Below are positions 37,775 through 42,688 of a DNA stretch of 42,688 bases, piece after piece. This stretch comes from Eubacteriales Family XIII. Incertae Sedis bacterium. Lineage in GTDB: Bacteria > Bacillota > Clostridia > Peptostreptococcales > Anaerovoracaceae. A program made the translations under genes and the position numbers. The stretch lies in contig JAISAW010000146.1 in assembly GCA_031266515.1 (NCBI GenBank), forward strand, positions 1 to 42,688, read 5' to 3'. Each line of letters opens with the position of its first letter. Within the stretch, counting starts at the first letter, position 1. The notes beneath the pieces are model-generated. The model had not been told where the DNA came from, searched no databases, and worked only from the letters and a program-made list of their open reading frames with translations.

Positions 37775-38680
37775 TCAGCCAGCCTTCTTCCCGGCGTCCT
37801 TGCCGGTACCGATCCTGAGCTGTGAGATGATGACCCCTGCGAAAATAAACGCACAGCCGACATAGCCGCGAAGGGTCATGGTCTCGCCAATCAGCACAGC
37901 CGCGCCGACAACGCCGAACAGGGCTTCAAGCGAAAACAGTATGGCGGCCCGGGTGGGCGGCACGTACTTTTGCCCCACCACCTGCAAGGTATAAGCGACC
38001 CCCGCAGACATTATCCCTCCGTACAGAAGGGCCACTATCCCGCCCTTTAATCCGGCGAAAGTGATCTCCTCGCCGAATGCCGCTATCGCCGTAGTCAGAG
38101 CCCCGCAGATGAAAAACTGCATGAACGACAGCTTCACAGGGCTTGAGACCTTTGCCACGGAGATATCGACGACGATGATATGAAGCGAAAAGAAAACTGC
38201 GCCTGTGAGCAGCAGTCCGTCGCCGAGGGAGAAGCTGCCAAAACCTTCTTTCATGCTTATGAGGTATATCCCCACCATCGACAGAGCCGCGCCGACCCAA
38301 AGCAAGGCCCCCGGGCGTTTGCCCCCGAATGCGCTGAAGATGGGGACCATGATGATATACAGGGCGGTGATAAACCCGGCCTTGCCTGCCGAATTGGTCA
38401 TGAGCAGCCCTACCTGTTGTATATTGCTCCCAGCGAAGAGCACACCTCCGCACAGCAGCCCGTATTTCAGCAGAGCCCTGGATTCCTGCCTGTCGGGCAG
38501 CTTCCTGTCCAGGACGAGTATGACGGGTATGAGCGATGCGGTCCCTATCAGAAATCTGACGCCGTTGTAGGTGAAAGGCCCCATGGTGTCCATACCGACG
38601 AGCTGGAACGTGAAAGCCACGCCCCATATCAGGGCCGTCAGGAAAATGCATATAGTGGCGCCAAACTCTTTTTTGTTCAC
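37775..38680 (-). CDS. EamA/DMT-family transporter
   Basis: Ten-TM duplicated EamA pattern; SLEALFGVVGAAVLIGETMTLRGYVGCAFIFAGVI. Confidence 0.9.
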   Translation of the reverse strand: MNKKEFGATICIFLTALIWGVAFTFQLVGMDTMGPFTYNGVRFLIGTASLIPVILVLDRKLPDRQESRALLKYGLLCGGVLFAGSNIQQVGLLMTNSAGKAGFITALYIIMVPIFSAFGGKRPGALLWVGAALSMVGIYLISMKEGFGSFSLGDGLLLTGAVFFSLHIIVVDISVAKVSSPVKLSFMQFFICGALTTAIAAFGEEITFAGLKGGIVALLYGGIMSAGVAYTLQVVGQKYVPPTRAAILFSLEALFGVVGAAVLIGETMTLRGYVGCAFIFAGVIISQLRIGTGKDAGKKAG

Positions 38681-38711: not shown

Positions 38712-39470
38712 TCAGAGTATGCTTCTCAGGAATTGCCGCGCCCTCGGATTTTTTGGGTTGCTGAAAAATTCCGACGGGGGCGCTTCTTCGGCGAGCTCTC
38801 CGTCGCACATGAAAATGACCTTGTTTGCAGCCTCGCGCGCGAAACCCATCTCGTGGGTGACCACTATCATTGAAGTCCCGCTTTTGGCAAGATCGCTCAT
38901 CACGGTCAGGACTTCTCCGACAAGCTCGGGGTCAAGAGCGCTCGTCGGCTCATCAAACAGCATGACTTCCGGCTCCATGGCCAACGCCCTGGCGATCGCC
39001 ACCCTCTGCTGCTGCCCACCAGAAAGCCTCGAAGGGTATTCGTCTGCCTTGTCCGAAAGCCCTACCCTGTCGAGCAGGGCATTTGCTTTTGCCTCGGCCT
39101 CTTTTGTGCTCATTTTTTTGACATTGATCGGCGCGAGCATGATGTTTTCCCGGGCGGTCTTGTGCGGGAAAAGGTTGAACCTCTGAAAGACCATGCCGAG
39201 CCTGAGCAGCATTTCCTTTCGCCTTTCGGAATTGATCTTTTCGACTTCCCGGCCTTCGCTTCGCTTCTCAAGAAGCTCGTCGTCAATATATATCTCTCCG
39301 TCAGTGATGGTCTCAAGGCCGCATAGCGCCCTGAGCAGCGTCGACTTGCCGGCACCCGACGGGCCGATCACCGCGATCACTTCCCCCTGCTCGGCGGTCA
39401 TCGACACTTTCCTCATGACTTCATTCGCGCCAAATGTCTTGCTTATTTCCACAGTGCGTATCAGCGACAA
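38712..39470 (-). CDS. Polar amino-acid ABC transporter ATP-binding protein
   Basis: IGPSGAGKSTLLRAL, LSGGQQQRVAIARALAMEPEVMLFDEPTSALDPELVGEV. Confidence 0.96.
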   Translation of the reverse strand: MSLIRTVEISKTFGANEVMRKVSMTAEQGEVIAVIGPSGAGKSTLLRALCGLETITDGEIYIDDELLEKRSEGREVEKINSERRKEMLLRLGMVFQRFNLFPHKTARENIMLAPINVKKMSTKEAEAKANALLDRVGLSDKADEYPSRLSGGQQQRVAIARALAMEPEVMLFDEPTSALDPELVGEVLTVMSDLAKSGTSMIVVTHEMGFAREAANKVIFMCDGELAEEAPPSEFFSNPKNPRARQFLRSIL

Positions 39471-39554: not shown

Positions 39555-40214
39555 TTAGTCATAAATAGCGAATTTCTTCTCAAGTTTGTTGAAGATGATG
39601 GTGAAAAATCCAGTCATTATCAAATATATTATCATGGAAGGTATGTATACAAGCTGGCTCGCCTTGTTCGACGCTATCATCTTCGTCTGGAAAGTCAGGT
39701 CCGTCACGGCGATGATGGACACCAATGAGGTATCTTTCAACACCATGATGAATTCGTTGCAGATCGGCGGTATCATCCGCCGGTAGGCCTGCGGGATGAT
39801 GACCAGGCGCATGGCCTGGACGTATGACAGCCCGAGTGTGCGGCTGGCTTCCATCTGGCCTTTGTCTATCGACTCTATCGCGGCCCTGATGATCTCCGCC
39901 AGATACGCGGCCACATTCAGCGAAAACGCGATGAACGCCGCCATGAACCTGCTTTTGATCGTGAAAGCGGGGACGAGGTTTGGCAAGGCGTAATATATGA
40001 AAAACAATTGCATCAACAGCGGGGTCCCCCTGAAAAAGAATACATACGCTGAAGAAGGGTACTTCAAATACGGTTTGTGCGATATCTTTCCGAGCGCTAA
40101 AAATATGCTTATGGCAAGCGCGGCAAACACTGACGTCACAGTCAGCGCAAGCGTCCAGCCCGACGCCCTGACGAGCGCAGGCATCCAGTTTATTATTTGT
40201 TCTATGGCATTCAT
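39555..40214 (-). CDS. Polar amino-acid ABC transporter permease
   Basis: FFFRGTPLLMQLFFIYYALP, EIIRAAIESIDKGQMEASRTLGLSYVQAMRLVIIPQAYRRMIPP. Confidence 0.96.
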   Translation of the reverse strand: MNAIEQIINWMPALVRASGWTLALTVTSVFAALAISIFLALGKISHKPYLKYPSSAYVFFFRGTPLLMQLFFIYYALPNLVPAFTIKSRFMAAFIAFSLNVAAYLAEIIRAAIESIDKGQMEASRTLGLSYVQAMRLVIIPQAYRRMIPPICNEFIMVLKDTSLVSIIAVTDLTFQTKMIASNKASQLVYIPSMIIYLIMTGFFTIIFNKLEKKFAIYD

Positions 40215-40226
40215 GCTGTCTCACGC

Positions 40227-40257
40227 GCAGGGAAACCCGACGGGGCGGGTTCCCTGC
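40227..40257. other. Strong hairpin between SBP and permease genes
   Basis: GCAGGGAAACCCG (40227-40239)/CGGGTTCCCTGC (40246-40257), one bulge. Confidence 0.65.
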
Positions 40258-40357
40258 GTTCTATTTATATTCCTGTTTGTGTTCTTTTATATTGTAGTAT
40301 CTTGCAGCTTGCAGTGCGAACAGGCTCTTTCATACTGCGGTGCAATATGGGCCGTCT

Positions 40358-41215
40358 CTACGCTTCCGAGCCAATCGCGCTTTTCGTGACGATGCAAAGC
40401 GCGTTGCTGACGTATGGCTTGGTCAGGATATATTTCTCCTGGCGCTCGGGAGTGATCGAGACGGACGAGGCTATGATGTCATACTGGCCTCTTTCAAGGC
40501 CGGCGAAAATGCCGTCCCACGCAGTGTTTACGAACTCGACCTCAAGCCCGAACAGTTCGCCGAGCTTCTTCGCGAACTCTATATCAAACCCTATGTAAGT
40601 CTGCCCGTCGTCAGTCGTGTATTCCATCGGGGGATATCCGACTTCCGAGCCTACTGTCAATTTGCCGGGGGTGACCGTGGCGAAACCCGTCGGGATTTCA
40701 GGCAGCTCTTTCACATCCCTCACGCCTTCAGTGAGGTTTGTCCCAAACTCCTTGTTCGCAAGTGCTTCCATTTCGCCTGTGAAGTAGAGGGTGTCGATAC
40801 CTGCCTCTACCGCAGCAGCGAGCTCTGTGTTGCCTTTCGCGATGCAGATCCCCATGGGCTCCCCTTCTTCGTTGGTCCATGTGACCTCGTATTCGTCGCT
40901 GTCCCTTGTGTAGTAAGACGCTACCACATTGTCAACATAGACAGCTTCGACGCGGTCAAGCAGCAGGTCGTCAAAGCACTGTATCACCTTTTCGTACTCG
41001 TGCACTTCGATGCTGCCGTCGCCTTCCTCATTCATCTCGTTGATCGCATCGGCGGCGGTTGTGGCAGTCTGGACAGCGACGCTGCGGCCCGCAAAATCAG
41101 CAGGCGATGTGATCTGGGCTTTTTCCTCCCCGCCTCCGCCTCCTCCGCTGCACGACGCAAGGGTAAGCGTCGCGACCATCAAGACTGCGATAAGTATTGC
41201 TATTTTCCTCTTCAT
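40358..41215 (-). CDS. Polar amino-acid ABC transporter substrate-binding lipoprotein, apparently circularly permuted
   Basis: Lipobox LASC. SBP family-3 C-terminal half (SPADFAGRSVAVQTATTAADAI...GICIAKGNTELAAAVEAGIDTL) precedes the N-terminal half (GKLTVGSEVGYPPMEYTTDDGQTYIGFDIEFAKKLGELFGLEVEFVNTAWDGIFAGLERGQYDIIASSVSITPERQEKYILTKPYV). Confidence 0.9.
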   Translation of the reverse strand: MKRKIAILIAVLMVATLTLASCSGGGGGGEEKAQITSPADFAGRSVAVQTATTAADAINEMNEEGDGSIEVHEYEKVIQCFDDLLLDRVEAVYVDNVVASYYTRDSDEYEVTWTNEEGEPMGICIAKGNTELAAAVEAGIDTLYFTGEMEALANKEFGTNLTEGVRDVKELPEIPTGFATVTPGKLTVGSEVGYPPMEYTTDDGQTYIGFDIEFAKKLGELFGLEVEFVNTAWDGIFAGLERGQYDIIASSVSITPERQEKYILTKPYVSNALCIVTKSAIGSEA

Positions 41216-41298
41216 CAGTTGGCTCCTCCAATCACGCTCAAACAGATAAATTAGTAGTTCCTGCTTTTCGGGTAGTTGACCTGAAAATTAGATTCTTA

Positions 41299-41478: not shown

Positions 41479-42231
41479 TCAGGCTGTCATCTCCTGATAG
41501 CTGCTCAGGTCGGCAGGGAAGTCTATCGTGATCCCTCCAATCTTGATATTGCCCATTTTGGTCTTCATCACCGTCTTTACATTTGTGCCTCCGATGGCCA
41601 TGTCAAATGTCATGTCCACCGAGTACTCCTGGATATTGCCGTCAGCATCGACAACCACAACGACGGTCGCATCGCCGAAATTCATATCAGGGCTTCTGCT
41701 TTCGCCTTCCTGGGCGAGGGCTTTGTTTACCTGGTCTTTGAAGGCGTCGCCCTTCACAACAAGCGTGGCTTTTTTGCCGCCGCTGGCGTCCTCCACCTTG
41801 GATGACTTCACGCTGCTTTTTGCAAAACTCTCGATCTTTGCTGACGCTCCTGACATAGCCTGTTCCGCGCTGAGCGCCTGCTTGAATTTACTGCCCATCA
41901 TTTCCATATACGCAAAACCGTCTTTGTAATACATGGTCAAATTGTTCTTCTGTCCTAATGAGTCCATCGCCGCCTGCATGTGCACTTGAATCTTGCCGCC
42001 ACTGCCTACCACCGATATGGGCCCTTCCATCGAGATGTTCATGTCACCGTCATTGAGGGCTTCTCTGGTCATCTTCATATCCAGAGTGAAGTCCATGCTG
42101 ACCGATTCGGCACCGTTGATCTTGTTTGCGGCTTCCTCATAAATCTTGTAAGCCCCTCCATCACTGCCGCCGCAAGCCGTAAAGGCAAGCACCATCGCAA
42201 ATAAAAGGATTACAGCCAATACCTTTTTCAT
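41479..42231 (-). CDS. Lipoprotein of unknown function (LppX/LolA-like beta-rich candidate)
   Basis: Start re-assigned to MKKVLAVILLFAMVLAFTACGGSDGG (lipobox FTAC). The body includes SVSMDFTLDMKMT and GNIQEYSVDMTFDM. Confidence 0.8.
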   Translation of the reverse strand: MKKVLAVILLFAMVLAFTACGGSDGGAYKIYEEAANKINGAESVSMDFTLDMKMTREALNDGDMNISMEGPISVVGSGGKIQVHMQAAMDSLGQKNNLTMYYKDGFAYMEMMGSKFKQALSAEQAMSGASAKIESFAKSSVKSSKVEDASGGKKATLVVKGDAFKDQVNKALAQEGESRSPDMNFGDATVVVVVDADGNIQEYSVDMTFDMAIGGTNVKTVMKTKMGNIKIGGITIDFPADLSSYQEMTA

Positions 42232-42364
42232 TTCCTCTCCTTCCCTTGTGAGATGCCTTCCCGGCGGAATGCCGCTGTAAATAATGCCAATGCTCACTTG
42301 ACTGGTCCCGAACGCCGAACCGCCGTCCGATACACGGGCCCGCCGCAGTATAGCCCCACAAAAC

Positions 42365-42405
42365 ATACTGCCGATGAAAATACCGTTTATTTTCATCGGC
42401 AGTAT
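42365..42405. other. Perfect 18-bp inverted repeat upstream of lipoprotein gene
   Basis: ATACTGCCGATGAAAATA-ccgtt-TATTTTCATCGGCAGTAT. Confidence 0.8.
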
Positions 42406-42688
42406 ATCACGCGCAAACCCTGTTTGCCCATGAAGGGTTAATCGAAAATTATCTATACTTAACCCATGGTCGATTGCCATAGTAAATGCGCCCCTGCGGA
42501 GAGCGAAGGGTTGTGTTAAGTCAGGCAAGCGCCTGTGTGCCATTTAATTGTGCAACCGGGGCTTCATCGCGGGGGGGGGTATCCCTGCCATACTCCCCCA
42601 TGGGGGAGCCGGCCGCATTTAGTCGTACAAGCCTTCGTTTTGGTGCAAAATATAAAAAGCGCCCTGCGCCCGTGCCATGCGCATAAAG

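Follow-up and report, generated by a model that had tools for sequence, protein, structure and literature searches.

What becomes of a substrate-binding protein (SBP) when the two parts of its chain are encoded in the reverse order, and by what route could such a gene arise in an otherwise ordinary transport operon? The question is raised by one open reading frame near the end of the window, by which we mean the whole stretch of 42,688 nucleotides of contig JAISAW010000146.1 that was analysed. The frame is intact and its product is a lipoprotein of family 3 of the SBPs, in which lobe 2 comes first and is followed by the returning lobe-1 segment, a linker and the lobe-1 N-segment, so that the normal order is reversed. 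The features on which the argument rests are the following.

40358..41215, minus strand: permuted family-3 SBP lipoprotein of 285 aa, P0001 (Pfam, PDB alignment, conservation, AlphaFold2)
41223..41229, minus strand: ribosome-binding site GGAGGAG, ahead of the ATG at 41215 (sequence)
41150..41215, minus strand: signal peptide and lipobox, residues 1-22 (sequence; Cys22 conservation; helix 4-19 in the model)
40889..41113, minus strand: lobe-2 segment, residues 35-109, normally after the N-segment, with T52/T53 and D95 (segment HMM, PDB alignment, conservation)
40736..40888, minus strand: returning lobe-1 segment, residues 110-160, normally the C-terminus (segment HMM)
40667..40735, minus strand: junction where the former C- and N-termini meet, residues 161-183, LTEGVRDVKELPEIPTGFATVTP region (C-termini of the sister proteins; clade conservation)
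40379..40666, minus strand: lobe-1 N-segment, residues 184-279, normally first, with R258 and the first hinge strand (PF00497 model 1-92, segment HMM, conservation)

The Pfam family PF00497 covers the whole protein in two stretches, in swapped model order and with 111.1 bits against a curated cut-off of 26.4, and a collinear full-length match in the normal order was not obtained. Residues 186-278 correspond to positions 1-92 of the model, and the N-terminal part, when taken alone, to positions 97-131. The two other PF00497 proteins that were found in the same genome are each collinear across the whole model. A phmmer search of the PDB gave the same picture, the best relative by sequence being AncQR (4zv1), which is again matched in two swapped stretches (residues 184-279 on 10-104, and residues 35-158 on 109-232 of the structure). 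The lipobox reads LASC, and its Cys22, the site of the lipid anchor, is nearly invariant among the permutants. The initial annotation had the frame, its coordinates and the mapping of residues on the DNA right, and its expectation that a Pfam search would return the halves in swapped model order was borne out. It had placed the end of the frame right after TKPYVSNALCIVTK; the region is the right one, but the frame continues for seven residues further (SAIGSEA). Its main proposal, a natural circular permutation with new termini at the hinge, agrees with the swapped Pfam and PDB stretches, with the order kept throughout the clade described below and with the AlphaFold2 model.

The window protein has company. 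In at least 13 further proteins of its clade, encoded in independent assemblies, the permuted order extends over the full length (at least 14 with the window protein), and 13 of them are collinear with it over about 245-280 residues at 49-63% identity. These close relatives, which include L001-L005, L014-L019 and L026, belong to several genera and all end within a few residues of one point, after IVVK, IVTK or IVTA. Their linkers follow, with small variations, the form T(E/A)G(V/L)RDV..(A/L)P.IP..F.T...G.L.VG. A way to read the history of this linker is provided by sister proteins in normal order (L006, L020 and L046), which are about 40-54% identical to the permutants per half where measured. 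These sisters end in GRDVTEGVR, GRDITEGVR and GSDITAGLR, precisely the sequence with which the permutants' linker begins; the later half of this linker is similar to the mature N-terminus of the sisters (for example LTITEGVLKVG, compared with FTTIQEGKLLVG). The short linker between the old termini that had been proposed at the outset can be recognized; the junction starts with the C-terminal sequence of the sisters. In separate trees of the N-half and the C-half the permuted clade adjoins one and the same sister group, as expected if a single gene had been duplicated and then trimmed. Both segments come from one parent group, their order is rotated and the old termini are joined; the frame at 40358-41215 is a natural circular permutant of a family-3 amino-acid SBP.

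Duplication is an established model for the origin of permuted proteins (PMC3320104), and the window protein is very probably a working permuted receptor of a polar-amino-acid ABC importer that was produced in this manner, by duplication, in-frame fusion and trimming. An ancestral SBP gene of normal order, located in the same operon, would have been duplicated in tandem and the copies then fused in frame. Trimming would then have spared the signal peptide and removed the N-segment of the first copy and, in the second, all that lay beyond the hinge strand. The resulting chain begins in lobe 2 and returns to lobe 1; a linker built from the former C- and N-termini then leads to the rest of lobe 1, and the chain ends on the hinge strand. 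Tandem arrangements of SBPs exist and favour the duplication step, namely a pair of neighbouring genes in genome G177 and a triple substrate-binding domain (SBD) in L136. Fission and fusion, or recombination between two different SBP genes, could lead to the same order in place of the duplication of a single gene. Other permuted proteins are known to have taken such a route (PMC3320104), and it would fit the finding that the duplicated parts have left no relic in the window, where we found none of the lost second lobe 2 downstream of the gene; likewise, a half-trimmed intermediate of the window clade was not found among the genomes searched. We nevertheless regard this route as unlikely, given the common sister group of both halves, a linker that begins with the sister's own C-terminus and the occurrence of tandem and fused SBD arrays in the family.

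Whether the rearranged chain would still make a receptor can be judged from its binding residues and its predicted fold. Among the permutants D95 is invariant, and T52/T53 and R258 are nearly so; the first three come from one of the swapped segments and R258 from the other. We take them to be equivalent to T121, D161 and R77 of the LAO-binding protein, which hold the amino and carboxyl groups of the ligand. Since the conserved ligand residues are drawn from both segments, the swapped pieces appear to reconstitute an ordinary amino-acid site. AlphaFold2 predicts a fold with a pLDDT of 89.2 and a pTM of 0.80, from an alignment of only 21 permuted sequences. The top PDB match of this model in Foldseek, which is order-dependent and not permutation-aware, is the tandem SBD1-SBD2 of GlnPQ (6h30); for many of the family's single-domain SBPs the match is confined to about 80 columns, at around 1-2 A. 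Another permutant, L059, aligns by sequence to 6h30 in one collinear stretch (residues 52-278 on 102-324 of the chain), which comprises the end of one domain and the start of the next. In other words, the permutants are collinear with the inner stretch of the GlnPQ tandem, which consists of the second part of SBD1 and the first part of SBD2 (6h30, PMC8025302), although GlnPQ has two complete domains in normal order fused to its permease, in contrast to the single, free-standing permuted domain of the window protein.

The fold also bears on the possibility that folding requires domain swapping, with permuted chains trading pieces of their lobes in a dimer or oligomer. Domain swapping does occur in the SBP fold, the arginine receptor TmArgBP being an example, but AlphaFold2 predicts a confident fold for the single chain, in which about 23 residues link the old termini, and we consider obligate swapping quite improbable.

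The reading as a receptor is in keeping with the genomic context. The ordinary permease and ATPase that the initial annotation saw next to the gene are indeed there, as judged by their matches to PF00528 and the HEQRo model and to PF00005, within the following set of neighbours.

40226..40258, minus strand: GC-rich hairpin between the SBP and permease genes, -22.8 kcal/mol
39555..40214, minus strand: amino-acid ABC permease (PF00528; HEQRo_perm_3TM above cut-off)
38712..39470, minus strand: amino-acid ABC transporter ATPase (PF00005)
37775..38680, minus strand: EamA-family (DMT) membrane transporter, fourth gene of the operon (conserved in permuted and normal-order loci)

The permease is of the HEQRo type (TIGR01726, 83.3 bits against a cut-off of 42.2), which marks the operon as that of a polar amino-acid ABC importer (PAAT). 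The order SBP, permease, ATPase is kept across the permuted clade wherever the sequence extends, usually with EamA next, and sisters in normal order are found in the same arrangement (L029 in G179 and L114 in G464 with EamA, L006 with permease and ATPase). Together, conservation and operon context support a function as receptor, by which the permuted SBP would be expected to close like a Venus flytrap on its amino acid and to dock on the neighbouring permease. Because the new termini lie at the hinge, the lipid anchor would join lobe 2 at its hinge end and not, as in the normal order, the far end of lobe 1. The hairpin possibly serves unequal expression of the SBP and permease genes. As to a riboswitch that might hint at the ligand, the window held no match to Rfam. 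Upstream, at 41479-42543, lies a lipoprotein-like frame with the lipobox FTACG and no Pfam match at 1e-5.

In order to place the window clade among its relatives, segment order was assigned by HMMs for three segments, the N-segment (N), lobe 2 (L2) and the returning lobe-1 segment (B). Four arrangements were found across the genomes searched, the normal N-L2-B and three permuted types. Type 1 (L2-B-N), to which the window protein belongs, is cut at the first hinge crossover. Type 2 (B-N-L2) is cut at the second one (L083, L108, L116-L134 and L135) and within one family, that of G493, occurs in about 20 of 200 genomes; its AlphaFold2 model (pLDDT 89.7, pTM 0.78, from a small alignment) matches amino-acid SBPs over about 170-230 columns in Foldseek. 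Type 3 (L086, L089 and L090, by HMM coordinates) is cut inside lobe 2, with the later half of this lobe first in the chain and its first half last. A permease adjoins every permutant whose neighbourhood was read, and in nearly all of them there is an ATPase as well. Fusions and tandems also occur. One permease is fused to two type-1 domains (L076, 598-2934), another to one (L141, 1108-2688), and a permease of 973 aa to three nearly identical SBDs in normal order (L136, 568-3486). The last is apparently a recent in-frame triplication, and a tandem array of this kind could be a source from which permutants are cut. In G177 two adjacent type-1 SBP genes (L003 and L032) precede a single permease and ATPase; the dN/dS of their linker is about 1.3, on only 23 codons.

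When 81 un-permuted sequences were placed in a maximum-likelihood tree, the permutation label needed 9 changes, at least 8 of them on well-supported branches, and in a tree of 84 sequences with all four arrangements 14; these counts are of changes and not of gains alone and, sampling having been done with permuted queries, frequencies are not readable from them. The window clade has one origin within the normal-order proteins (support 100/99 and 100/100). A single clade of all permutants is rejected by the AU test (p 6e-58 and 3e-102), and so is a clade of the window group plus L045 (p 7.6e-6), a permutant whose nearest relatives, L065 and L066, are in normal order. Two separate origins of type 2 are favoured by the tree, without significance in the AU test (p 0.144). 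These results support separate origins for the window clade and the other permutants in Bacillota, and a permutation that is recurrent and uses three or more cut positions, of which two lie at the hinge. One ancestral permutation followed by later returns to the normal order would be a rival account of all the permutants of the phylum; counts that include losses, the mixed composition of some groups and an AU test that by itself leaves room for repeated reversion all give it some latitude. Against it stand the rejection of one clade for all permutants, and of the window clade with L045, as well as the normal order being the rule among the solved relatives found, and we judge it very improbable. 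A wider proposal would be that permutation has taken place many times in the family-3 amino-acid SBPs of Bacillota, with cuts at either hinge crossover as well as within lobe 2, so that every rotation of the three segments occurs naturally, and that the shift of the lipid anchor, or of the fusion to the permease, to the hinge was itself selected. We put this forward tentatively and find it rather doubtful as a whole; if true, an anchor at the hinge may alter how the tethered receptor reaches its permease.

That the window order is an assembly artefact, or the frame a decaying pseudogene with scrambled halves, can be rejected as next to impossible even though the assembly is fragmented and 82% complete, because independent assemblies from many genera share the permuted order at full length, with intact frames, a conserved operon and purifying selection on both halves. 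Selection was measured on a close pair of other clade members, L001 and L002, where it is strongly purifying (dN/dS about 0.02 and 0.08 for the two halves), because comparisons of the window protein with its nearest relatives have a saturated dS. The initial annotation had named a collinear PF00497 match and a local assembly rearrangement as the findings that would speak against it; the match consists of two swapped stretches, and homologues with this order occur elsewhere.

Among ABC receptors, natural permutation has a precedent in the sugar receptors of cluster B, where we found one published case. TpMglB-2 (Tp0684) of Treponema pallidum, a sugar SBP classified as 'Type Ic / cluster Bc', is a natural circular permutant for which ligand binding and closure have been demonstrated, it has relatives in Gram-positive gut bacteria, and membrane anchoring was suggested by its authors as a possible reason for the permutation (PMC4990184). 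It resembles the window protein in being a naturally permuted, lipid-anchored ABC substrate-binding protein. The differences are in the fold and its crossovers, TpMglB-2 being a type I, cluster B sugar receptor with a fourth crossover and the window protein a type II, family-3 receptor cut at the first hinge crossover, and in the survival, for the latter, of close sisters with normal order in the same type of operon. With the canonical family-3 SBPs (PF00497; LAO-BP, GlnBP, TmArgBP, AncQR) the window protein shares the segments, the binding residues, export as a lipoprotein and the operon partners; what sets it apart is the rotated segment order, with the termini at the hinge. Engineered biosensors built from permuted or split SBPs demonstrate that the fold tolerates new termini; those are man-made, whereas the permutants described here occur naturally and are conserved. 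We found no report of natural permutants of family-3 amino-acid SBPs in the open-access literature and no solved permuted family-3 receptor by sequence search of the PDB.

It is rare to find natural circular permutants together with surviving sisters of normal order in the same operon; they amount to a natural experiment in which a protein was cut and rejoined at its hinge, repeated in Clostridia and their kin. As one family offers several origins and three or more cut positions, the tolerance of the fold to breaks in its backbone becomes directly testable, as do the route by duplication and trimming and the effect of the position of the tether on an ABC importer. The cut positions are naturally marked insertion sites that may help in the design of biosensors. 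For annotation, domain and structure searches that depend on segment order give permuted SBPs only partial scores. Among plasmid records, one place showed more than 80% query coverage, a fused substrate-binding/permease protein of Enterococcus that is probably a tandem like GlnPQ.
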